From Pseudomonas poae (GTDB lineage Bacteria > Pseudomonadota > Gammaproteobacteria > Pseudomonadales > Pseudomonadaceae), in contig CP034537.1 of NCBI GenBank assembly GCA_004000515.1, positions 3,858,001 to 3,922,000 on the forward strand: a stretch of 64,000 nt of DNA, in the 5' to 3' direction. Every line of letters starts with the position of its first letter. Positions within the stretch are counted from its first letter, which is position 1. This document shows positions 241 through 11,223 of the stretch, piece by piece. The notes under the pieces were generated by a model. The model saw only the letters and a program-made list of their open reading frames with translations, was not told the DNA's origin and did not search any database. Position numbers and translations under genes: made by a program.

Positions 241-1728
241 TCAGTACCGGATCATCACGGATTTGAGCTCGGTGTAGTCCTCGATAAAGGCGCTGCCAAA
301 CTCCCGGCCAACCCCCGAAGAGCGGTTGCCGCCAAACGGCACTGCGGGGTCGAGCAGGGTGTGCATGTTCACCCACAGGGTGCCTGCGTTGATCGCCGGG
401 ACCATGCGCAGCGCCTTGCCCAGGTCGTTGGTCCACAGGCTGGCGCTGAGGCCGTAGGGGCCGTGGTTCATCAGCGCCAACAACTCGTCTTCGCTGTCGT
501 AGGGCAGGAAGGTGGCGATGGGGCCGAAGGTTTCTTCGTTGAGCAGGGTGTCGTTGATGCTATTGGCCAGGATCACCGTGGGCTCGACGTAGCAGCCGGG
601 GCGGTCGAGGAGGGTGCCGCCGTGGATGATCGTATTGTTTTCGGCGCGGGCCTGGGTGAAGTAGCCGAGCAGTTTGAGCTGGTGCTGGTGGTGGGTGACC
701 GGGCCGAATTCGGTGCGTTCGTCCAGCGGCGAGCCGATGGCCAGGCGGCTGAGGCGAAGCTTGAGTTTTTCCAACACGGCATCGATCTGTGAGCGGTGTA
801 CGAAGAAGCGTTCGGCCGCCGCGCAGATCTGCCCGGAGTGCAGGAAGCCGGCTTCGATGATGCCGTCTACCGCTTTGTCCACGTCCACGTCGCGCAGGAA
901 ACCCGCGGCGTTCTTGCCGCCCAGTTCCAGGGTGGCGCGGGTGAGGCCTGCGCCCATGGCACTGCGGCCCACGGCGATACCGGTGGGCACGGAGCCGGTG
1001 AACGACACCTTGTGGGTGCCGGGATGTTCCACCAACCCCTTGCCGACCTGGCCGCCGCCGGTGAGTACGTTGAGCACCCCTGCCGGCAGCCCGGCTTCGA
1101 TGGCCAGTTCGGCGATGCGCAGGATCGTCAGCGGGGTGAATTCGCTGGGCTTGATGATGATGCTGCAACCGGTCACCAGTGCCGAGGCGAGTTTCCAGAT
1201 GGCGATCATGGTCGAGAAATTCCACGGCACGATGCCCACCACCACGCCCACCGGTTCACGCAAGGTGAAGGCGGTGTAGCGCTCGCCGTTGAACGAGGGC
1301 AGCGATGGGGTGATGGTCTGGCCCGTGAGTTTGCTCGCCCAGCCAGCGTAATAGCGCAGGAAGTGCGCGGCCTGGTCGACTTCGAATGCACGGGAAATCT
1401 GGATGATCTTGCCCGACTGGCACGTCTCGATCTGCGCCAGTTCCTCGCGGTTGCGCTCCAACAGGTCGGCAAGCTTGAGCAGCACATTGCCGCGCGTGGC
1501 TGGAGCCGTTTGCGACCACAGGGCAAAGCCACGATTGGCGGAATCTACCGCTGCGTCGATATCCGCAAGGTCAGCATCGGCAACCTCGGCGATGACCTGG
1601 CCGGTGGCCGGGTTGGTCACCGCCAGCGTCTGGCTGGAGTGGCTACGTACGTTGTCGCCGTCGATAAACAGCCCGTGGGGTCGACGCAAAAACGCTTCGA
1701 CTTGGGGCAGCAGCGGGATATCGCTCAT
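241..1728 (-). CDS. feaB: Phenylacetaldehyde dehydrogenase (FeaB/PeaE-like)
   Basis: NAD-dependent aldehyde dehydrogenase of 495 residues, the usual length for the family. Visible motifs are the cofactor-site block VGIVPWNFS, the substrate/cofactor turn FTGSVPTG, the general-base motif LELGGKN and the catalytic cysteine in GQIC near residue 300. The N-terminus and overall pattern match phenylacetaldehyde dehydrogenases, which oxidise the aldehyde from phenylethylamine deamination to phenylacetate. The start at 1728 follows an AGGA-type ribosome site (AGGAACCTGCC-ATG); an upstream in-frame extension would run into the porin end. A FeaR-type motif lies about 60 bp upstream. Linkage to a FAD amine oxidase, permease and FeaR-like activator supports an amine-catabolic role. 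Related aldehydes (4-hydroxyphenylacetaldehyde, indoleacetaldehyde) cannot be excluded. Confidence 0.85.
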   Translation of the reverse strand: MSDIPLLPQVEAFLRRPHGLFIDGDNVRSHSSQTLAVTNPATGQVIAEVADADLADIDAAVDSANRGFALWSQTAPATRGNVLLKLADLLERNREELAQIETCQSGKIIQISRAFEVDQAAHFLRYYAGWASKLTGQTITPSLPSFNGERYTAFTLREPVGVVVGIVPWNFSTMIAIWKLASALVTGCSIIIKPSEFTPLTILRIAELAIEAGLPAGVLNVLTGGGQVGKGLVEHPGTHKVSFTGSVPTGIAVGRSAMGAGLTRATLELGGKNAAGFLRDVDVDKAVDGIIEAGFLHSGQICAAAERFFVHRSQIDAVLEKLKLRLSRLAIGSPLDERTEFGPVTHHQHQLKLLGYFTQARAENNTIIHGGTLLDRPGCYVEPTVILANSINDTLLNEETFGPIATFLPYDSEDELLALMNHGPYGLSASLWTNDLGKALRMVPAINAGTLWVNMHTLLDPAVPFGGNRSSGVGREFGSAFIEDYTELKSVMIRY

Positions 1729-1788
1729 GGCAGGTTCCTGGCAGTTCACAAAGAAAAAACCGAGGGTAACCAACGGGTCACCCTGTGG

Positions 1789-1807
1789 CTTGACTGTGCC
1801 TGCCAGG
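1789..1807 (-). promoter_or_regulatory. Candidate FeaR-type activator site upstream of feaB
   Basis: Read toward feaB the site is CCTGGCA-N7-TCAAG. The same core, CCTGGCG-N7-TCAAA, occurs at 3233-3262 and 10677-10708 before the porin/permease and the amine oxidase. It starts about 61 bp upstream of the start codon. The assignment to the neighbouring AraC-family regulator is inference. Confidence 0.5.
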
Positions 1808-1834
1808 TTTTCTGCCTGTGACTGCCCAGACGCC

Positions 1835-3157
1835 TCAGAACGGCACGGCCACCACCAGTTGGCTGTAGACGTTGGTGCCTTTGCCGCCGACTTGGTTGCC
1901 GCCGGTTTCGGCATCTTTGTCGGGTTTGTAGAGGCCGATCAGCGGCGTGATGATCAGGTGTTCGTTCACCGCCCATTCGGCGTACAGGTCGAGTTCGCGA
2001 CCGTCCAGGTTCAACTGGCCACGGGTGCTGACGGTGTTGTAGTCGAAAAACAGCGCGCCGAGGGTGAGGTTCTCCAGCGGCTTGACCTTGAGGGCCACGT
2101 GCTGCACCGAAGTGTTGGTGTTGTAGGGCCCGGAATAGTTGCCGGCCACTTCGCCCTGGACCCACGTGCCGTAGCCACGGTTGAAACCGGCGAACATCGC
2201 ATCCCAATCCTTTGAATAGCGGGCGTAGCGGTAGGTCAGGTCCGGTGACCAGGGCAGGTTGGCGAAGGTGTAGCCGGCTTCGGCGTAACCGGCGTTTTCC
2301 TGGCCGTCGCGGCGGTCCTGGCGCGCCAGTTCGAAGGCAAAGTGGGCGTTGTCGACGCCTGCGTTGCCGGCGCCGCGCACGCTGTAGAGGTTCATGCCTT
2401 TGCGTTGGCGCTGTACATCAGAGGCGTAGCGGTCGTCCACGTCGATGCCGCGCATATAGGTGAGCCCGAGGGTGCCGGGTGCGGCGGTGTATTCCAGGGT
2501 GCCGGCGGCCATTTCGGTCATGGCCTGTGCCGGGTTGTCGGACTTGAACCACAGCAGGCTGCCATGCACGCCGTCTTTGCCGCCGAGGCGGATCACCGCG
2601 GTCTTGTCGAACGCGTGACGTGCGGCGATGTAGTAGGCGCCGCCGCGATTGAACTCGCCGTCGCCCACGCCCTTGCCCAGGTTGGGGCCGTCGTCGTTGA
2701 GGATGAAACCGTCGCCGAGGGTGAGCACCTGGCGGCCGAACGACAGGTCGACGCCGTCCTTGCCCAAGGCCGGGAACAGGTCACCGGAACGCCAGCCGGC
2801 GAAGGCTTCGTCAAACTTGGTGGTGCGCTCCTTGCCGGTAGTGACCCCGGACGCATCGCCATCGCCCCAGGTGCCGGAACTCACCAGGTTGGCCGTGCCG
2901 TACACGCCACCGAAATTGCCCAGGCTTTGTTCCACACTCAGGCCGTACTTGATAAATGCCTCGCGCCAGGTGGACCCACCCGTGCGGCCGTCATAGTTCT
3001 TCGGGCTGTTGAACATGCCGTACACGGCAAGGAAGTTGCCGGTGACTTTGGTGTCGGCATCGGCGTACAACTCGACCGCCTGGGCCTGGCCCACCAGTAA
3101 CGCGGTAGCCAGGCCGACCGCCTGGCCCAGGCGGCGATTTTTCAGTGTGTGCTCCAT
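1835..3157 (-). CDS. Outer-membrane porin, alginate-export-like beta-barrel
   Basis: A 440-residue protein with a Sec signal peptide (cleavage after ...LLVGQAQA) and a mature chain of alternating hydrophobic/aromatic strands ending in aromatic residues (VVAVPF), as in outer-membrane barrels. The internal pattern (LSFGRQVLTLGDGFILNDDG, SLLWFKSD) resembles the alginate-export/DUF1302-like porins that pseudomonads place beside catabolic gene sets. Start at 3157 follows GGGGAC. It shares a divergent 216-bp promoter region with the APC permease and carries the FeaR-type motif about 76 bp upstream. The likely role is outer-membrane uptake of the compound degraded by this cluster; the substrate is not readable from sequence. 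Confidence 0.7.
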   Translation of the reverse strand: MEHTLKNRRLGQAVGLATALLVGQAQAVELYADADTKVTGNFLAVYGMFNSPKNYDGRTGGSTWREAFIKYGLSVEQSLGNFGGVYGTANLVSSGTWGDGDASGVTTGKERTTKFDEAFAGWRSGDLFPALGKDGVDLSFGRQVLTLGDGFILNDDGPNLGKGVGDGEFNRGGAYYIAARHAFDKTAVIRLGGKDGVHGSLLWFKSDNPAQAMTEMAAGTLEYTAAPGTLGLTYMRGIDVDDRYASDVQRQRKGMNLYSVRGAGNAGVDNAHFAFELARQDRRDGQENAGYAEAGYTFANLPWSPDLTYRYARYSKDWDAMFAGFNRGYGTWVQGEVAGNYSGPYNTNTSVQHVALKVKPLENLTLGALFFDYNTVSTRGQLNLDGRELDLYAEWAVNEHLIITPLIGLYKPDKDAETGGNQVGGKGTNVYSQLVVAVPF

Positions 3158-3232
3158 TGTTATTGTCCCCAGCTTGGTTAAGAGTGAGGGCGCATTAGGG
3201 CGAGCGCTGGGGGCCCAAGTCTTTCCTCTGCG

Positions 3233-3262
3233 TGCCAGGGATTTGACCCTGGCCGCCAGGCA
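3233..3262. promoter_or_regulatory. Candidate FeaR-type activator site in the divergent porin/permease promoter
   Basis: Contains the inverted repeat GCCAGGG-N6-CCCTGGC (3234-3253) followed by gCCAGG-CA. On the minus strand the core is CCTGGCG-N7-TCAAA. Nearly the same 30-base block occurs at 10677-10708, at a similar distance from its minus-strand gene (76 versus 83 bp). Confidence 0.55.
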
Positions 3263-3373
3263 CCGGGCCGTGGCAGGGAGCAACAAAACCGGCGGCAGAC
3301 AGGGGCAAGACGACTAACACGGGTGGGGCGCAGAGTGCCGATACATTAAAAAACCGCTTTCGAGGACCCCACC

Positions 3374-4872
3374 ATGTCGAGCAACGACCGACTCACCGCG
3401 CACCTCAACCGAGGCACGGTAGGTTTCCCCACCGCACTGGCCAGCACCATTGGCCTGATCATGGCCAGCCCGGTGATTCTCACCGCCACCATGGGCTTCG
3501 GTATCGGCGGCAGCGCCTTTGCCCTGGCGATGCTGATCGCAGTAGTGATGATGCTGGCCCAGGCCACAACGTTTGCCGAGGCCGCGGCGATCCTGCCCAC
3601 CACCGGCTCGGTGTACGACTACATCAACTGCGGCATGGGGCGCTTTTTCGCGATCACCGGCACCTTGTCGGCCTACCTGATCGTGCATGTGTTTGCCGGC
3701 ACCGCCGAGACCATCCTGTCCGGGGTGATGGCGCTGGTGAACTTCGAACACCTCAATACCCTGGCCGAGTCGGCCGGTGGTTCGTGGTTGCTGGGGTGGG
3801 CTTCGTGATCGTGTTCGGCGTGCTGAATGCCTTTGGTGTCAGCGCATTCGGGCGGGCGGAAATCATCCTCACGTTCGGCATGTGGACCACGCTGATGGTA
3901 TTCGGCGTGCTGGGCTTGATCGCCGCACCCGCGGTGCAATTGGATGGCTGGTTCGGCGAGTCGCTGGTGGGCACCGACCTGATCACCGTGCTGTCGCTGG
4001 TGGGCATGGCGATGTTCATGTTTGTCGGCTGTGAGTTCGTCACGCCACTGGCACCGGACCTGCGCCAATCGGCCAAGGTGATGCCGCGCGCGATGATGCT
4101 CGGGCTGGTGGGCGTGGCCACGTGCATGTTCATCTACGGCGCCGCGATGAAGCGCCAGGTGGAAAACGTGGTGCTGGACGCCGCCTCGGGCCTGCACCTG
4201 CTGGACACACCCATGGCGATTCCGAAATTCGCCGAGCAGGTGATGGGGCAGTTCGGCCCGATGTGGCTGGGCATCGGCTTTCTGTTTGCCGGCGCGGCGA
4301 CCATCAACACCTTGATGGCCGGTGTGCCACGCATTCTCTACGGCATGGCGGTGGATGGCGCGTTGCCCAAGGTCTTCACTTATCTGCACCCACGCTTCAA
4401 GACCCCGCTGCTGTGCATCTTGGTAGCGATGCTGATTCCCTGCCTGCACGCGCTGTATCTGGGCGGCAACACCGACAACATCATGCACCTGGTGCTGGCG
4501 GCGGTGTGCGCGTGGAGCTTTGCGTACCTGCTGGTGACGGTGTCGGTGGTGATCCTGCGCATTCGTCGGCCGGACTTGCCACGGGCGTATCGCTCGCCGT
4601 GGTTTCCGCTGCCGCAGATTGTGTCGAGCCTGGGCATCCTGCTGGGCATGTGGTTCATCACCCCGCCGGGCATGAACCCCTCGGACATCTACGTGCCGTT
4701 TGGCGTGATGCTGGGCGGGACGGCGGCGTATGCGTTGTTCTGGACCCTGGTGGTGCAGAAGGTCAATCCTTTCAAACCGGCCTCCGTGGAGGAGGTATTG
4801 GCAAAGGAGTTCAGTCATCAACCGGGGCATGCTGATCATGGTTATAGCGACTTTGCGCCAAAAACTGTTTGA
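3374..4872 (+). CDS. APC-family amino acid/amine permease (frame broken near 3799)
   Basis: Inner-membrane amino acid/polyamine/organocation permease, about 499 residues after restoring one G in the run at about 3797-3801. The N-terminal part runs from MSSNDRL to GGSWLLG; the rest continues one frame over with VGFVIVFGVLNAFGVSAFGR to the stop. About twelve hydrophobic segments are visible. Transcribed divergently from the porin and followed by an overlapping DUF3156 gene. In this context the cargo is probably the amine that is catabolised. The break sits in a G run and both halves are intact family sequence, so a real pseudogene is less likely than a base-calling error. Confidence 0.75.
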
Positions 4873-5401
4873 GTTGTTCCGTGCCGATCGTGCCCCGGCG
4901 GGCTATCGACCGGGGATCACCCTGGCGAAAGTGCGGCGCAACCTTGGGCCTGCTAACGCTGAGCTTGCCGGGTTGGCGGTTGATATCGTCGAGCGCGCCG
5001 AATCGCAGTTGTTGATGCACCTGGTGATGACCGAGTTCGTGCTGCGTGTACCTGCTGCAACAGGGGGCACAGCGAGTTTCGAGGTGCACCATGGCGGCGC
5101 GATTCGGCGCAACGGCATCCGTGTGCGCAGGCGTTCAGGCAACCAGGCGCTGGGCCGTGACTTGCAGGCGCGCTTGCTGGCAGACCCTGCGTTGTTACAA
5201 GCCTTGATGCCGCTGGATTTCAAGCGCCTGCGTATCGAGTTGCACAACCAGCAATGGTGCGTGCGCCTGGAGCATATGGGCGGCAGCGAGGTGGTCAATC
5301 GCATGCCGGCGTTCCGACGTTATATCGCCTTAAGCCCGGTGCAGCGTGATCACTTGCTCGCCAGCCTGGTGGGCTTGCAACGGCTGTTGTCGACCCTCTG
5401 A
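4829..5401 (+). CDS. DUF3156 family protein
   Basis: A 190-residue protein of unknown function whose start overlaps the end of the permease by 44 bases, implying translational coupling. The start could also be 4838 (two candidate ATGs, neither with a strong ribosome site). The sequence (RADRAPAGYRPGITLAKVRR, LHNQQWCVRLEHMGGSEVVN) matches what I know as DUF3156, usually found after amino acid permeases in Pseudomonas. No signal peptide or membrane segment is visible, so it is probably cytoplasmic. The role is unknown; association with the transporter is the only clue. Confidence 0.6.
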   Translation: MLIMVIATLRQKLFELFRADRAPAGYRPGITLAKVRRNLGPANAELAGLAVDIVERAESQLLMHLVMTEFVLRVPAATGGTASFEVHHGGAIRRNGIRVRRRSGNQALGRDLQARLLADPALLQALMPLDFKRLRIELHNQQWCVRLEHMGGSEVVNRMPAFRRYIALSPVQRDHLLASLVGLQRLLSTL

Positions 5402-5452
5402 TTGGCATCAATAGTGCAACCGCAATGGCAAGACAGGTAGTTGTTGCGTGCA

Positions 5453-5474
5453 AATAGCTAACATGTTAACTATT
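5453..5474. promoter_or_regulatory. 22-bp near-perfect palindrome upstream of feaR-like gene; candidate HpaR operator
   Basis: The centre is TAACA/TGTTA with arms AATAG and CTATT; only one base pair breaks symmetry. It lies 40 bp before the AraC-type gene. A related imperfect palindrome containing TGTTAACTA occurs at 12629-12646 before the MFS gene. A MarR-family HpaR homologue is encoded between the two sites. Confidence 0.55.
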
Positions 5475-5513
5475 GCATTAGAACAACAAAAGAAGCCATT
5501 GCGGAGGCACCCC

Positions 5514-6452
5514 ATGAGCATCCCACAGCATGCACACGACGGGCTGGACACCTGGAATCGGGAGCTGCGCGACGCGTGCGGTTATTTCGATACCGAACTG
5601 GCTTTCAACCGCTCGCTGTTCATCGGCGAGATCAGCAACTTGCCGCGCGGCCTGGCCATCCTGCGCACCAATGCCGGGCTGATCAAACGTCCGTCGCACC
5701 ATGCCGATCACGACAACGACCAGGATTGCTACCTGGTCAGCCAGCGCAGCGGTTATTCGCAGATCGTGCAGAACGGCCAGACCCTGCAACTGGCCCCTGG
5801 CGAGATGCTGCTGATGGACTCGGTGGGTTCCATCGAAATCATCCCCTTCGGCCTTATCGAACATGCCTCGCTCTCCCTGTCGCGCCCGCAGGTGTGCAAA
5901 CACCTGGGCGGCGATGGGCGCGTTTGGCAAGATCTCCTCGACCAAGGCCTGTGGGCGCATGCTGCATGTGCTGATGGACCAGTTGTGCAAGGACAACACC
6001 GAAGACGGTGACGGCGAGGTCGAGGCCTTGCAATCGGCATTCGTCTCGCTGCTGGGCTCGGCCCTGGAGCAGGGCGACGAGTGCCGCGAAGGCGTGGCGG
6101 CGCTGCAAGGGAATAACCTGCGCAGTTATGTGCAGAAAGTGATTGATGAGTCACTGAGCCAGCCCGGCTTGAGCCCGATCGGTTTGGCCAATCGGCTGAA
6201 TATCTCGGTGCGGCATTTGTATCGCCTGTTTGAGGAACAGGATGACAGCGTGTGCCGCTACATCCAGCGGGCACGGCTAAAGCGCAGCGCGGATGATTTG
6301 ACCAACCCGTTCCTGCGCAGCGAGTCGATTACCTCGATTGCCTACAAGTGGGGTTTACCGATTCGGCGCATTTCAGCCGGTCGTTCAAGAAGCAGTTTGA
6401 GGTGTCGCCCAAGGATTTCCGCTCAAGCCGGATGCAGGCGGTGGGGGCCTGA
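5514..6452 (+). CDS. feaR: FeaR-like AraC-family transcriptional activator (frame broken near 5910 and 6353)
   Basis: About 312 residues after repair. An N-terminal ligand-sensing domain (about residues 1-180; QDCYLVSQRSGYSQIVQNG, LAPGEMLLMDS) is followed by a C-terminal AraC double helix-turn-helix (LSPIGLANRLNISVRHLYRL, then after repair SIAYKWGFTDSAHFSRSFKK). Break 1 is an extra G near 5905-5915; break 2 is a missing T in the TTT run near 6350. A clear GCGGAGG site precedes the ATG. FeaR of enteric bacteria activates phenylacetaldehyde dehydrogenase and amine oxidase genes, and the linked feaB and amine oxidase suggest the same regulon here. Confidence 0.75.
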
Positions 6453-6480
6453 GCACTGTCTTTAGAACAAAGGCGATCTA

Positions 6481-6510
6481 ATGTGGGAGCTGGCTTGCCA
6501 GCTCCCACAT
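6481..6510. repeat. Compact REP palindrome between convergent genes; possible bidirectional terminator
   Basis: ATGTGGGAGCTGGC and its exact reverse complement are separated by only TT, giving a 14-bp perfect stem. It lies 28 bases after the feaR-like stop and 12 bases from the stop of the convergent dehydrogenase. This is the REP head of the ...GAGCTGGC family with its spacer removed. Confidence 0.75.
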
Positions 6511-6522
6511 TTAATTCGCATT

Positions 6523-7277
6523 TCAGACTTCTGGCAGCGTGGATCCGCCGTCCACCACTAATGTCTGCCCAGTGATGTAGCTCGCCAAACCCGACGCCAG
6601 GAACACCATCGCCCCAGCAATATCCGCCGCCGCCCCAGCCGCCCCAATGGCACGCGACTGGCAATGCTGTCATTCAACGCCGCATCCCCCAGGTTGCCCA
6701 TCGCCGGGGTGGCGATCATGCCCGGTTCCACACCATTCACCCGCACATTCAGCGGCGCCAGTTCCAACGCCGCATTGCGGATGAACCCGTTGACCCCGGC
6801 TTTGGACGCCGCGTAGTGACTGAGCCCCGGATACCCCACCCGGTTACCGGTGACCGAGGAGGTCACCAGCACACAGCCTCGGCCTTGCTGGCGAAACATC
6901 GGCAAGGCTGCCTGGGTCAGCCAGAACAACGCTGACAGGTTGACCGCCAGCGTGCGCTGCAGGATCGCCGGGGTGATGGCTTCAAAGGGAGTCAGCGGAA
7001 AGTACCCGGCGTTGTGCACCAGGGTATCCAGCTGCGGCAGCGCTTGAACGCAGGTGAATACTGCCTCGGCCTCTGCCAGGTCGACACCCACCGCTTCCAC
7101 GCTATAGCCCTGCGCGTTCAGTGCAGCAGCAACCTCTTGGGCCTGCTCCAACAGGCGGTCGGCAATCACCACCCGGGCGCCACGCTGGGCAAACGCTTCG
7201 ACGATTCCCAGGCCAATCCCCTGGGCGCCGCCGGTGACCAGCACCACCTGCCCGCTGAAATCCAGGTCATTGGGCAT
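6523..7277 (-). CDS. Short-chain dehydrogenase/reductase (frame broken near 6640)
   Basis: Classical SDR, about 251 residues after restoring one G in the run near 6640. The cofactor motif TGGAQGIG lies near residues 15-22, followed by NAG, the catalytic YAASK and the C-terminal TGQTLVVDGGS. Without the repair the last 36 residues are lost, including this conserved tail. Its start overlaps the end of the next SDR gene by 11 bases, so the two are co-transcribed with moaF, the cupin and the oxidase. The substrate is unknown; oxidation of a side-chain hydroxyl or reduction of an aldehyde in amine breakdown is plausible. Confidence 0.75.
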
Positions 7278-8070
7278 GGGCGGGCTCCAAACGGGTGAAG
7301 GCCAATGTCGGCACATCGACGATGCTCGACCCACCGTCCGCCACTAACGTCGCCCCGGTGATGATCGACGCGTCGCTGGAGGCCAGGAAGCGGCACACTT
7401 TGGCGATCTCGTCGGCCTGGGCGGCGCGGCGCAGTGGCACGTCGGCGCAAACCCGGTCGTAGGCTTGCTGCAGCGTGTCGCCGTAGGCGTCCATCAACGG
7501 CTGCATCTCCGCATCGGCCATAGGCGTGTGCACCCAGCCGGGGCACACGGCGTTGACCCGCACGCCGTGGGGGCCATAGTCCCGCGCCAACGAACGATTC
7601 AACCCGAGCAGCGCATGCTTGGCCGTGGTGTAGCCGCACACCTCGGGCCCTGCCGCCAACGAGGCGATGGAGCCGATCAGCACGATGTTGCCGGCGCTTG
7701 CCTGCAACAGCGGCAGGCAGGCGCGGGCGCTGTAGAACGCGCTGTCGAGGTTGCTGCGCAGAGCGCCTTCCCAGGTGGCGGGGCTGGTCTGGGTCGCACT
7801 GCCCAGGCCATGGCCTCCGGCGCAGGCCAGCAGCACATCGATTCGCCCAGCGTGCGCGTGGATCTGCCGGATGAACTCGCCCCAAGTGGTCGGGCAGGCG
7901 GCGTCGCCCACTAGGATCAGACCACCGGTGTCACGCGCCACCTGTTCCAAGGGTTCGCGGCGTCGTCCGATCAGCACCAGTTGCGCACCTTCCTCTGCGT
8001 ACAGCCGCGCACACGCCGCGCCGATGCCGGTACCCGCGCCGGTGATCACCACCGTGCGCGGCTCAGTCAT
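7267..8070 (-). CDS. Short-chain dehydrogenase/reductase
   Basis: Intact 267-residue SDR with the cofactor motif TGAGTGIG near residues 11-18, the active-site YTTAK and a C-terminal ITGATLVADGG. Start at 8070 overlaps the end of moaF by 8 bases; an upstream in-frame extension would lie entirely inside moaF. It is clearly diverged from its SDR neighbour, so the pair probably performs different steps. The monoamine regulon of Klebsiella is recalled to include a similar oxidoreductase next to moaF; the exact reaction is not known. Confidence 0.75.
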   Translation of the reverse strand: MTEPRTVVITGAGTGIGAACARLYAEEGAQLVLIGRRREPLEQVARDTGGLILVGDAACPTTWGEFIRQIHAHAGRIDVLLACAGGHGLGSATQTSPATWEGALRSNLDSAFYSARACLPLLQASAGNIVLIGSIASLAAGPEVCGYTTAKHALLGLNRSLARDYGPHGVRVNAVCPGWVHTPMADAEMQPLMDAYGDTLQQAYDRVCADVPLRRAAQADEIAKVCRFLASSDASIITGATLVADGGSSIVDVPTLAFTRLEPAHAQ

Positions 8071-8884
8071 GGGGGTATTCCGTGCGGTTGAGTACTCGGC
8101 AATACGAGCTGACCGGGAAGTTCGACAGTTCGTCGAACGACGCCCCGGCATAGCCGAAGATCTTGCCGTCGCTGCGGTGCTGTTGCAGGTCGATCAACAC
8201 CAGGCCGAGTGTGGGCACGATCTTCTCTTGCCACACAAACAGGTACAGCTGTTCGGCGATCTTGTAGTAGTGGCAGCGGTCGGTGTCGCACAAACCTTGC
8301 TCCACGCCCTGCAGGCATTGCCAGGCGTAGAAGCGATCGTTGAGGTAGATGTGCTCGTAGACCTCGCTGGGGCTGTAGCGGTACTGGTTGCGCAGGCCCA
8401 CCAGTTCGTCGGTGGGCGCGTGCGGGCAATGGCCGTCTTGCCATGGGCGGTCGAGGCTGCCGTGGAGGAAGTCGGCTTGCACCGAGGTCAGCGGCTTGCC
8501 GGCGAGGGCGCGGTGGTAGAGGCCTTCGTGGGTTTCCTGTTGATCCGGCAGGCTGCCGATCACCGCCGTGAACGAGGCACTGTGGGTATCCAGCACCAGG
8601 CTGATGGACCAGCTTTGTCCGGCCTCGTGCTTGATGAAATCCACCAGGTACAGCCCCGGACGGATTGAGGTGGCGCGGTACGGCGCGCTGCCGCTGGAGT
8701 GCCCATCGGCGGCATGCCAGGCCAGGCGGTCGCGCTCGAAACGGTGTTCGATCTGCCAGCCATTGGCGAAGTGCAGGGTGAAGGCCTGGCCGGCCAGGTC
8801 GGCACGGTTGGGCAGGATGAACGCTTCTGGGGCGAAACCGTCGGCGAGTGCGCCCACGGTGATCCAATTGGACGAACTCGTCAT
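8063..8884 (-). CDS. moaF: MoaF-like protein (monoamine regulon / MoaF family)
   Basis: A 273-residue soluble protein with the two-lobed MoaF layout: an N-terminal lobe (GFAPEAFILPNRADLAGQAF, FANGWQIEHRF) and a C-terminal lobe (RYSPSEVYEHIYLNDRFYAW, LCDTDRCHYYKIAEQLYLFV). MoaF belongs to the monoamine-inducible moa genes of Klebsiella and is also called a molybdenum cofactor protein F; its biochemical role is unsettled. The fold looks lipocalin-like, which would fit binding of a small ligand. It lies within an operon of two SDRs, a cupin and a FAD oxidase, supporting the amine connection rather than cofactor synthesis. Confidence 0.75.
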   Translation of the reverse strand: MTSSSNWITVGALADGFAPEAFILPNRADLAGQAFTLHFANGWQIEHRFERDRLAWHAADGHSSGSAPYRATSIRPGLYLVDFIKHEAGQSWSISLVLDTHSASFTAVIGSLPDQQETHEGLYHRALAGKPLTSVQADFLHGSLDRPWQDGHCPHAPTDELVGLRNQYRYSPSEVYEHIYLNDRFYAWQCLQGVEQGLCDTDRCHYYKIAEQLYLFVWQEKIVPTLGLVLIDLQQHRSDGKIFGYAGASFDELSNFPVSSYCRVLNRTEYPHD

Positions 8885-8897
8885 GGCAACGTCTCCC

Positions 8898-9263
8898 TTA
8901 GACGACGGCGAAGTAGTGTTTGACGAAGCTTTCGCTGAGCACTTCCCACAGCACAGGCGTGCCTTTGGTCACGAACCAGCTGTCGCCTGCCTTGTAGTGC
9001 GTGGACTGGCCGGTGGACTCATCGGTGAGTCGCACCTCGCCGGTCACCACGGTGGCTTGTTCGCTGAACGGGTAGACCATGCGGAACTTGCCCTGGGTCG
9101 TGCCGAAGTAGGCGCTGCTGACCGGGTCGGTTGGTGCACCGAAGGTCATTTTGCCGAAGGCACGCACTTCGCCTTCGAGGATCTCGGAGCCGAGGTCGGC
9201 CACGGTGCCCCAGGCGTCGAGTTCCGACAGCTGGATGTTGTGCTTGAGGGTGGTAAGGGTCAT
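8898..9263 (-). CDS. Cupin-domain protein (Cupin_3 type)
   Basis: A 121-residue single-domain cupin. The second cupin motif is visible as GDSWFVTKGTPVLWEVLSES, and EATVV-type strand repeats precede it. Small cupins of this kind are frequently encoded next to FAD-dependent amine/polyamine oxidases in Pseudomonas. Function is unknown; the conserved metal-binding histidines of enzymatic cupins are poorly represented, so a binding or folding role is as likely as catalysis. Start at 9263 follows an AGGAGCAACTGCC leader. Confidence 0.75.
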   Translation of the reverse strand: MTLTTLKHNIQLSELDAWGTVADLGSEILEGEVRAFGKMTFGAPTDPVSSAYFGTTQGKFRMVYPFSEQATVVTGEVRLTDESTGQSTHYKAGDSWFVTKGTPVLWEVLSESFVKHYFAVV

Positions 9264-9294
9264 GGCAGTTGCTCCTGATGAGTAAAAAAGTGGG

Positions 9295-10593
9295 TTAGCG
9301 GCGCCCGTTCCAGTAGCCGGAAAGTTGGTGCCAGGATTTGCCCGCCGTCAGCAGCAACGGGCGGATTGCGTCCTTGCCGATGATGGTCGGACGATGAATC
9401 GAGGAAACCAGGTCATAGCGCGCCGAGCCTTCGCTCATGCCTTCGGCGAGGACCTTGCAGATGATGTGGCTCGGGGTTACGCCAAAGCCTGAGTAGCCCT
9501 GTACGAAAAACGCATTGCTGCGCCCCGGCAATGTGCCGATCTGCGGGAACAGGTTGGGGCTGCATGCCATTGGGCCGCCCCAGGCCAGGTCGATTTTCAC
9601 GTCCTTGAGGTACGGGAAAATCTTCAGCATGAGGTTGCGGTTCCACGCCTTGAGGTCGCCGGGAATATGCTCCACCAAAGGGGTGGCGGCGCCGAACAGC
9701 AGGCGGTTCTCGTTGGTCACGCGGTAGTAGTCGATCACCGGGCGGATGTCGCTGTAGGCCCCACGGATCGGGCTGATGCGCTGGATCAACTCTTCGGACA
9801 ACGGCTCGGTCATCATCTGGAACGCGTAGGTGTTGACGGTCGAGCGGTGCAGTTCCGGCTCCAGCTTGTTGAGGAAACTGTCGCAGGCCCACAGCAACTT
9901 GCTGGCGCGCACCGAACCGCGCCCGGTGCGCACCGTGATGCGTTCGCCGTAGCTGACCTCCAGCGCCGGGCTGTTCTCGAAAATGCGCACGCCGTGACTG
10001 GCCAGTGCGGTGGCTTCACCCAGCAGCAGGTTCAACGAATGCACATGCCCGCCGCCCATGTGCAGCAGGGCGCTGGTGTAGGCCTTGGAGCCGATGATCT
10101 GCTGCACATCGGAGCCGCCGAGAAAGCGGATCTCGTGCTGGCTGTTGATCGACTTGAAGTCCTTCTCCCAGGCGCGCAGGGTTTTTTCCTGGCGGGCGTT
10201 GAAGCCCATGTAGCCGTAGCCGTGGCAGAAGTCGGCGTCGATGTTGTACTTGGCGATACGGTTCTTGATGATGTCGGCGCCCAGGTCGCTGATCTCGAAC
10301 ACCTGGCGCAGGCCGTCTTCACCGACGTCTTTCTTGATCTTCTCCAGGTCGTGGCCGATGCCCGCCATGATCTGCCCGCCATTGCGCCCAGTGCCGCCGA
10401 ACCCCAGGTAGCGCGCTTCGAGGACGACGATATTGGTGATGCCTTTTTCCGCCAGTTCCAAAGCGGTGTTGATGCCGGAGAAACCACCACCAATCACCAC
10501 CACATCGGCGTCGATGTCTTGCTCCAGGGTGGGAAAACTGAGGTTGTATTTCTTGGTGGCGGTGTAATACGTGGGGGTTTCGATGTTGATCAT
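9295..10593 (-). CDS. FAD-dependent amine oxidase (DAO/PuuB-like)
   Basis: A 432-residue flavoprotein of the DAO superfamily. The dinucleotide-binding motif VVVIGGGFSGINTALELAE lies near residues 29-47, followed by the FAD-contact segment LGFGGTGRNGGQI, which is typical of gamma-glutamylputrescine-oxidase-like enzymes. The C-terminal GYSGFGVTPSH block closes the FAD site. It is the first gene of the minus-strand operon oxidase-cupin-moaF-SDR-SDR. It most likely deaminates an amine to the aldehyde that FeaB oxidises. A FeaR-type motif sits 83 bp upstream. The substrate (phenylethylamine, tyramine, polyamine or a hydroxylated amine) cannot be decided from sequence. Confidence 0.75.
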   Translation of the reverse strand: MINIETPTYYTATKKYNLSFPTLEQDIDADVVVIGGGFSGINTALELAEKGITNIVVLEARYLGFGGTGRNGGQIMAGIGHDLEKIKKDVGEDGLRQVFEISDLGADIIKNRIAKYNIDADFCHGYGYMGFNARQEKTLRAWEKDFKSINSQHEIRFLGGSDVQQIIGSKAYTSALLHMGGGHVHSLNLLLGEATALASHGVRIFENSPALEVSYGERITVRTGRGSVRASKLLWACDSFLNKLEPELHRSTVNTYAFQMMTEPLSEELIQRISPIRGAYSDIRPVIDYYRVTNENRLLFGAATPLVEHIPGDLKAWNRNLMLKIFPYLKDVKIDLAWGGPMACSPNLFPQIGTLPGRSNAFFVQGYSGFGVTPSHIICKVLAEGMSEGSARYDLVSSIHRPTIIGKDAIRPLLLTAGKSWHQLSGYWNGRR

Positions 10594-10676
10594 GGGGCAG
10601 CCTGAAAGGTGAAGGAAGGCTCTAAAGCGGATGCCTCCATTAAGGGCCCTGACGGGATGGATGTCTTGATCCTGCC

Positions 10677-10708
10677 TGCCCAGGGTTTTGATTCTGGGCG
10701 CCAGGGCA
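10677..10708. promoter_or_regulatory. Candidate FeaR-type activator site upstream of the amine oxidase
   Basis: Contains GCCCAG...CTGGGC dyad and GCCAGGGCA. Toward the oxidase the core reads CCTGGCG-N7-TCAAA, identical in half-sites and spacing to the site at 3233-3262 and close to that at 1789-1807. Confidence 0.55.
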
Positions 10709-10801
10709 GACATGACCTACACGTTATAGCGCGCACTTGCTGGCACGGAATGCTAGAGTTTCGTTAAATTATTAATCAAATTCGTCGTGACCCTGATCCC
10801 T

Positions 10802-11223
10802 ATGCTTAAACCTCGCCAGTCCCTGACCTTGACCCTGTTGCAAGCCCGCGAAGCGGCTATGAGTTTTTTCGCCCGTCCCTCAACGAACACGGCCTCACCG
10901 AACAGCAGTGGCGCATCATCCGCATCCTGCAACAACACGGTGAACTGGAGATTTACCAACTGGCGGAACTGGCCTGCATCCTCAAGCCGAGCATGACCGG
11001 CGTGCTGGTGCGCATGGAGGCCGCAGGCATGGTGCACCGGCGCAAGGCCGAGCAAGACCAGCGCCGTGTGCTGGTGACCCTGGCCGACAAGGGCGTGGCC
11101 AGCTTCGAAGCCATGAGCCAGTGCATGGAAGCCAACTACCAGCGCTTGCAGGATGAGTTGGGCGACGAGAAGTTGCAGACCCTGTTGGGGCTGCTGGATG
11201 ACCTGAAAAACATCAAGCGCTAG
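10802..11223 (+). CDS. hpaR: HpaR-like MarR-family repressor (frame broken near 10872)
   Basis: About 140 residues after restoring one T in the T run at about 10865-10870 (MSFF then RPSLNEHGLTEQQWRIIRI). The winged-helix reads ELEIYQLAELACILKPSMTG, then VRMEAAGMVHRRKAEQDQRR. The block LTLLQAREAAMSFFRP and the rest resemble HpaR/HpcR, the repressor of 4-hydroxyphenylacetate (homoprotocatechuate) degradation, which responds to aromatic acids. An in-frame GTG at 10787 is an alternative start. No hpa catabolic genes are present in the window, so its targets here are probably the convergent MFS gene and perhaps the feaR-like gene (palindromes at 12629 and 5453). Its stop overlaps that of the MFS gene tail to tail. 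Confidence 0.75.

Follow-up and report, generated by a model that had tools for sequence, protein, structure and literature searches.

We analysed a 64-kb window of the Pseudomonas poae genome (GenBank assembly GCA_004000515.1, contig CP034537.1, positions 3,858,001–3,922,000 of the forward strand) that carries an island of genes related to amine catabolism. These include a feaB-like aldehyde dehydrogenase gene, divergent genes for an outer-membrane porin-like protein and an APC-type permease, the AraC-family regulator gene feaR, and a unit that opens with a gene for an FAD-dependent oxidase (fad) and continues with cupin, moaF and two SDR-family genes (Table 1). The gene products fit a route in which porin and permease serve uptake, the FAD oxidase carries out the oxidation and feaB removes the aldehyde, and both the feaB-like aldehyde dehydrogenase and the FAD amine oxidase, identified by homology, sit downstream of predicted operators. 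Four elements in the island share one architecture and are very probably FeaR-type operators that switch four units together, a reading drawn from sequence comparison.

Table 1. Predicted operators and genes of the island in the 64-kb window (window coordinates)
Feature	Position	Strand	Details
feaB predicted operator	1787–1827	-	distal half 1827–1809, weak; proximal half 1805–1787, strong; 22-bp period; proximal start to ATG 77 bp
porin predicted operator	3219–3258	-	distal half 3258–3240; proximal half 3237–3219; 21-bp period; proximal start to ATG 80 bp
centre between porin and permease operators	3259–3270		12 bp; length nearly fixed, sequence varies
permease predicted operator	3271–3311	+	distal half 3271–3289; proximal half 3293–3311; 22-bp period; proximal start to ATG 81 bp by coordinates (3293 to ATG 3374)
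FAD oxidase unit predicted operator	10663–10703	-	distal half 10703–10685; proximal half 10681–10663; 22-bp period; proximal start to ATG 88 bp
feaR, AraC-family regulator	5514–6452	+	NCBIfam NF007243 (FeaR); three frame segments in this assembly
feaB-like aldehyde dehydrogenase	241–1728	-	best family StyD (phenylacetaldehyde dehydrogenase), 531 bits, below the cut-off of 850
outer-membrane porin-like protein	1835–3157	-	weak match to Alginate_exp (PF13372), below cut-off
APC-type amino acid/amine permease	3374–4872	+	interrupted by a single apparent frameshift
FAD-dependent amine/amino acid oxidase (DAO family)	9295–10593	-	opens the unit that also contains cupin, MoaF and two SDR genes
SDR2, SDR1, MoaF and cupin (remainder of FAD oxidase unit)	6558–9263	-	without an operator of their own

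Side-by-side reading in relatives resolves the operator into two direct half-sites, TGGCAnnCA-N4-CAAgac, with a period of 21–22 bp; the predicted operator is tandem AraC-type in layout. The FeaR consensus of Zeng and Spiro (2013) is reportedly TGNCA-N8-AAA. The porin and permease half-sites fit the form TGNCA-N8-(N)AA either fully or with TGGCG for TGGCA, those of fad fit with TGGCG and GGGCA, and the distal half at feaB is degraded (GGGCA, CAG). We built a two-half-site matrix from 157 fad, porin and feaB regions, including those of the window, and left permease regions out. Information in the half-sites is 1.24–1.74 bits per position, compared with 0.18–0.84 in the flanks and 0.37–0.75 in the best-fitting half-sites of reversed regions. 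Only four elements in the window score above 15 with this matrix: porin at 51.3, fad at 49.4, permease at 38.6 and feaB at 35.3. Six Markov-shuffled versions of the window, each scanned on one strand, yielded a single match above that level, at 16.1.

A preliminary description of this DNA had proposed one regulatory motif, CCTGGCR-N7-TCAAR, upstream of feaB, the porin/permease pair and the FAD oxidase. The window contains exactly three perfect matches (1789–1807, 3242–3260 and 10687–10705, all on the minus strand), all at the three promoters, which confirms the observation. The string is not a complete site, however, but one half of a two-half-site operator. At porin and at the FAD oxidase it corresponds to the distal half, at feaB to the proximal one. 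The permease operator had been overlooked, so that the porin/permease region holds two sites and the island four. As a stand-alone pattern the short motif was rejected as unspecific, because the window has 55 matches with up to two mismatches against 25.2 expected and the 7.52-Mb genome has 37 perfect matches (4 for the reversed-pattern control).

The full operator, by contrast, is nearly specific. With up to two mismatches, the same genome has it before fad, porin and permease, at one site (5,870,694) of a second locus that carries tynA and a second FeaR (FeaR2), and once as a stray, at 494,477. Three mismatches bring in feaB and a partner of the second-locus site at 5,870,642, together with 15 further matches (3 for reversed patterns). 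Because feaB falls among these, the case for its operator rests on conservation, not on genome-wide rarity.

Conservation was assessed in the best 80 of 271 related loci, found through MoaF orthologues and taken with flanks of up to 10 kb. Their record titles name Pseudomonas, except for one Pantoea (L107) and one Paucimonas (L092), and gene order differs widely among them. Counting scores of at least 20 within 250 bp upstream of a gene, the operator precedes fad in 57 of 60 loci, porin in 52 of 54 and feaB in 39 of 39, counts that are partly circular because these regions trained the matrix, and permease in 53 of 55, a count that is not circular. Before counting, 3 fad, 3 permease and 25 feaB matches were dropped for low identity, an unsure start or less than 150 bp of upstream sequence; most of the 25 are other aldehyde dehydrogenases below 70% identity, and the feaB orthologues counted have at least 70%. 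Whichever single class served for training, regions of the other classes outscored all reversed controls, the lowest counts being 57 of 60 for fad, 52 of 54 for porin, 53 of 55 for permease and 39 of 39 for feaB; with training on fad, for example, 53 of 54 regions did so at porin, 53 of 55 at permease and 39 of 39 at feaB. With the same training, regions upstream of moaF, feaR, sdr1 and cupin exceeded the controls in 0–9 of 59–79. In total, the 80 loci contain 252 operator matches, and their reversed sequence (1.53 Mb, two strands) contains none.

The remaining genes are almost free of operators. None scoring at least 20 precedes moaF (0 of 79), sdr1 (0 of 79), sdr2 (0 of 77), duf3156 (0 of 57), marR (0 of 36) or feaR (0 of 59) in these loci, and one was found before cupin (1 of 61). 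A separate FeaR site before feaR, moaF, sdr1, sdr2 or duf3156 is ruled out at this score. The preliminary description needs amending here too: in the unit with moaF, the operator stands before the first gene, fad, and moaF and the SDR genes lack their own. That description had also named two findings that would speak against it, namely loss of the motif upstream of orthologues or many random genomic matches. Neither refutes it: orthologues keep the motif in their upstream regions, and strong stray matches to the full operator are few, although the short motif has many matches.

The operator also tracks FeaR. We surveyed 149 Pseudomonas genomes, calling FeaR by the NCBIfam NF007243 cut-off, and found it in 58 of them, or in 59 when counting our own genome, in which the copies are split. 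The operator pattern of the 22-bp type, with 0–1 mismatch, has 83 matches in 42 genomes (0 for the reversed pattern), 68 of which lie within 15 kb of a feaR, as do 41 of the 47 perfect ones. A perfect match and FeaR occur together in 32 genomes, the motif alone in 1, FeaR alone in 27 and neither in 89 (Fisher P = 3e-15, with genomes treated as independent though related). All 21 perfect matches of the 21-bp type in the 149 genomes are within 4.5 kb of a feaR. FeaR genes near operators in other genomes score 342–399 bits against NF007243; the pieces of the window feaR reach 126.9 and 162.3, relative to a whole-protein cut-off of 199. On plasmids, the best FeaR match is below 60% identity in 796 of 802 records. 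The earlier proposal of a regulon bound by the FeaR-like regulator of the island is the best reading of these data: that regulator matches NF007243, the operator follows FeaR across the genus and stays before the same genes despite shuffled gene order, and a related layout exists at the FeaR targets of Escherichia coli.

In 55 of 57 fad sites and 50 of 52 porin sites, AAGAC is followed at 20–21 bp by a TAAT-like element; in 33 of 39 feaB sites the distance is 17–18 bp, and 48 of 53 permease sites lack the element. From the sequence we infer how binding and activation, the inducer, operon structure and the −35 and −10 roles might fit together. Once an aromatic amine or the corresponding aldehyde has activated it, a dimer of FeaR, an AraC/XylS-family protein, would bind the two direct half-sites, the 21–22-bp spacing corresponding to two helical turns. 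The proximal half, ending in AAGAC about 20 bp before the TAAT −10-like element, would overlap the −35 region, so that the dimer could recruit RNA polymerase as a class II activator. The four operators would then turn on feaB, porin, permease (with DUF3156 behind it) and the fad-cupin-moaF-sdr-sdr unit together, porin and permease sharing a bidirectional promoter with two back-to-back operators.

The porin and permease operators have a conserved mutual geometry. They are arranged head-to-head, and the gap between their distal ends is 12 bp in 34 of the 35 divergent pairs and 13 bp in the other, with 29 different spacer sequences among the 35; the intergenic lengths range from 215 to 377 bp and the distances to the start codons from 77 to 133 and from 80 to 187 bp. 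Across all 54 head-to-head pairs in the 80 loci, the gap is 12 bp in 34, 11 bp in 6 and another length in 14, counts in which many genomes are close kin. The constant 12-bp gap suggests contact between FeaR dimers, or it may come from another shared constraint of two abutting promoters. We tentatively propose, as an idea to which we give somewhat less than even weight, that porin and permease are served by a single 93-bp bidirectional FeaR switch with four half-sites, in which the 12-bp gap would let two dimers touch and fire both promoters cooperatively. The module would have been kept, with a changed dialect, between feaB2 and porin2 at the FeaR2 locus, and similar pairs 9–11 bp apart in relatives, between feaB and a PAS chemoreceptor gene, would couple uptake, oxidation and chemotaxis to one amine signal.

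This soluble PAS-MCP chemoreceptor (for example, L067:17457–18425, L091:2227–3201, and in L094 and L105) has an operator scoring at least 15 in 21 of 27 related loci; one more locus was left out because too little upstream sequence was present. Of the six misses, five have a match that begins past residue 37, so that the start is unsure. Our own genome has no full-length match to it. The chemoreceptor operator would link amine catabolism to taxis.

The second locus bears on which regulator binds the island. FeaR2 lies beside tynA at 5.877 Mb, and the site at 5.87 Mb adjoins a feaB paralogue (52%) and a porin paralogue (56–61% over two pieces). The tynA product is a copper amine oxidase (NF011285, 1438 bits), and the locus, L142, adjoins phenylacetate (paa-type) genes. 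At L142:2643–2734, two head-to-head operators 12 bp apart accompany tynA, feaB2 and porin2 and use a different half-site dialect. The tynA–feaB2–porin2–FeaR2 locus thus resembles the island in layout, including the head-to-head pair and its 12-bp gap, but has a copper amine oxidase where the island has an FAD oxidase, and another dialect. Island half-sites end in ..CAAGAC or AAAGAC, and those at FeaR2-type genes in ..TTTGGCAACCACACACAAGGC and similar; in our genome the second dialect reads TGGCAAGCACAGTCAAGGCTTTGGCAACCACACACAAGGC. Matches to it, picked by eye, lie within 20 kb of a feaR in 14 of 15 cases, and its linkage to tynA is seen in our own genome only. Genomes with two FeaR paralogues and two dialects offer a test of how AraC-family duplicates keep their targets apart.

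A rival reading has the island sites bound mainly by FeaR2, or by both FeaRs, which would cross-wire the two amine systems. In its favour, a head-to-head operator pair with this layout is found 6.6 kb from FeaR2, and the island feaB operator ends in CAAGCC rather than CAAGAC. Yet the two dialects can be told apart, and a FeaR accompanies 53 of the 57 fad promoters that bear an operator, within the same locus, while the remaining 4 are on short contigs; we consider this reading unlikely. Far less probable is repression by the divergent MarR-family regulator beside the FAD oxidase, acting on a palindromic part of the sites (CCAGGG-N6-CCCTGG at porin). A MarR gene does adjoin the FAD oxidase site in the window, relatives of it occur near fad in many loci, and the porin site contains a short inverted repeat, but for 27 of the 57 fad promoters that bear an operator no such MarR lies within 2.5 kb, and the conserved feature is the direct half-site. 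On these grounds we rejected the inverted-repeat reading. That the resemblance is due to chance, or to a dispersed Pseudomonas intergenic repeat, is barely credible: the short motif has its 37 genomic matches and the full pattern its strays at three mismatches, but at up to two mismatches a single stray is left, reversed controls contain no operator, and rearranged gene orders leave it in place ahead of the same genes.

Several observations weigh against regulation of the island by its own FeaR. The 15 additional matches at three mismatches stand at the level of the window feaB site. At 0–1 mismatch, 4 genomes have the 22-bp-type motif without a FeaR over the cut-off and 21 have FeaR without the motif; at up to two mismatches the link is weaker still (43 with both, 29 motif only, 16 FeaR only, 61 neither). 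Thirteen regions at distant FeaR-like genes (about 113–198 bits, other families) contain no convincing operator, with a best score of 17.8, although this is a weak test. In the related loci, 42 of the 252 matches are not before the listed genes (18 of the 42 are chemoreceptor sites), and the operator is missing at fad in L100, L101 and L109, at porin in L090 and L106 and at permease in L108 and L110. The feaR gene itself is spread over three frames in this assembly. The comparison with E. coli also has its limits: the Pseudomonas matrix scores below 8 throughout the E. coli feaR locus, and the island-type FeaR (its L031 orthologue) is 25% identical to E. coli FeaR, to which FeaR2 is more similar (37 and 54% over its pieces). 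In 13 kb around feaR, feaB and tynA of E. coli MG1655, a relaxed tandem TGNCA-N8-NAA, set after inspecting the feaB and tynA promoters, occurs only twice, before those two genes, against 0.007 expected from Markov shuffles. Both sites have a period of 21 bp.

The interrupted frames recur in this genome. Apparent frameshifts fall in the permease gene (3784–3808), feaR (5860–6360), FeaR2 (G000:C1:5877303–5878201) and the porin paralogue (L142:3545–3548). In the related loci, feaR is a single high-scoring segment pair (at least 90% of its length) in 62 of 62 loci with a match and permease in 58 of 62, and FeaR2-type genes in other genomes are open frames. Assembly error seems likelier than decay.

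Other features of the island and its relatives may bear on regulation or metabolism. A MarR-family-like gene at 10801–11222, divergent from the FAD oxidase and with an apparent frameshift near 10860, is present in part of the relatives only. Upstream of feaR lies a palindrome, TAACATGTTA, at 5457–5470; because feaR orthologues lack a FeaR operator, a regulator other than FeaR may act there. A LuxR-type regulator with a weak match to an autoinducer-binding domain lies between cupin and moaF in one locus (L047:9253–9912), and in many other loci the space between these two genes is about as large. Another locus carries, between porin and feaB, a flavin reductase and an acyl-CoA-dehydrogenase-like gene of the two-component monooxygenase type (L036:17089–18856); neither the window nor L031 has space for such a pair.

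A search of the open-access literature for MoaF, Pseudomonas, amine and aldehyde dehydrogenase together returned no paper combining all four. Within the open-access literature searched, in which the head-to-head layout was not among the queries, the kind of operator is already known from E. coli and the regulon is newly defined. A regulator known in this work from two E. coli targets thus gains a sequence-defined regulon across many Pseudomonas genomes, one that shows which genes work with the uncharacterised FAD oxidase–MoaF–SDR unit, and the operator motif can be used to find amine-degradation genes.

The closest known system is that of E. coli, where FeaR regulates tynA and activates feaB according to one report (PMC4640556), and where another (PMC5540944) lists phenylacetaldehyde as a predicted FeaR effector with supporting evidence. 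As in the island, the E. coli operators consist of tandem direct half-sites with a 21-bp period and belong to a FeaR-named regulator, and the proximal half at feaB lies 76 bp from the ATG, compared with 77–88 bp across the island operators. The half-site core differs (TGGCA with CAAGAC in the island, TGTCA with AAA at E. coli feaB), and so does the extent of the system: within the 13 kb read, E. coli has two sites, and its amine oxidase is a copper enzyme, whereas the island has four operators serving an FAD oxidase–MoaF–SDR unit, a porin and a permease as well as feaB. More distant members of the AraC/XylS family share the arrangement. In PMC4514859, XylS sites are given as TGCA-N6-GGNTA twice and MekR sites as CACC-N5-CTTCAA twice; their half-site sequences differ from those of the island, but, counted from these consensus strings, both are consecutive sites with the same 21-bp period.

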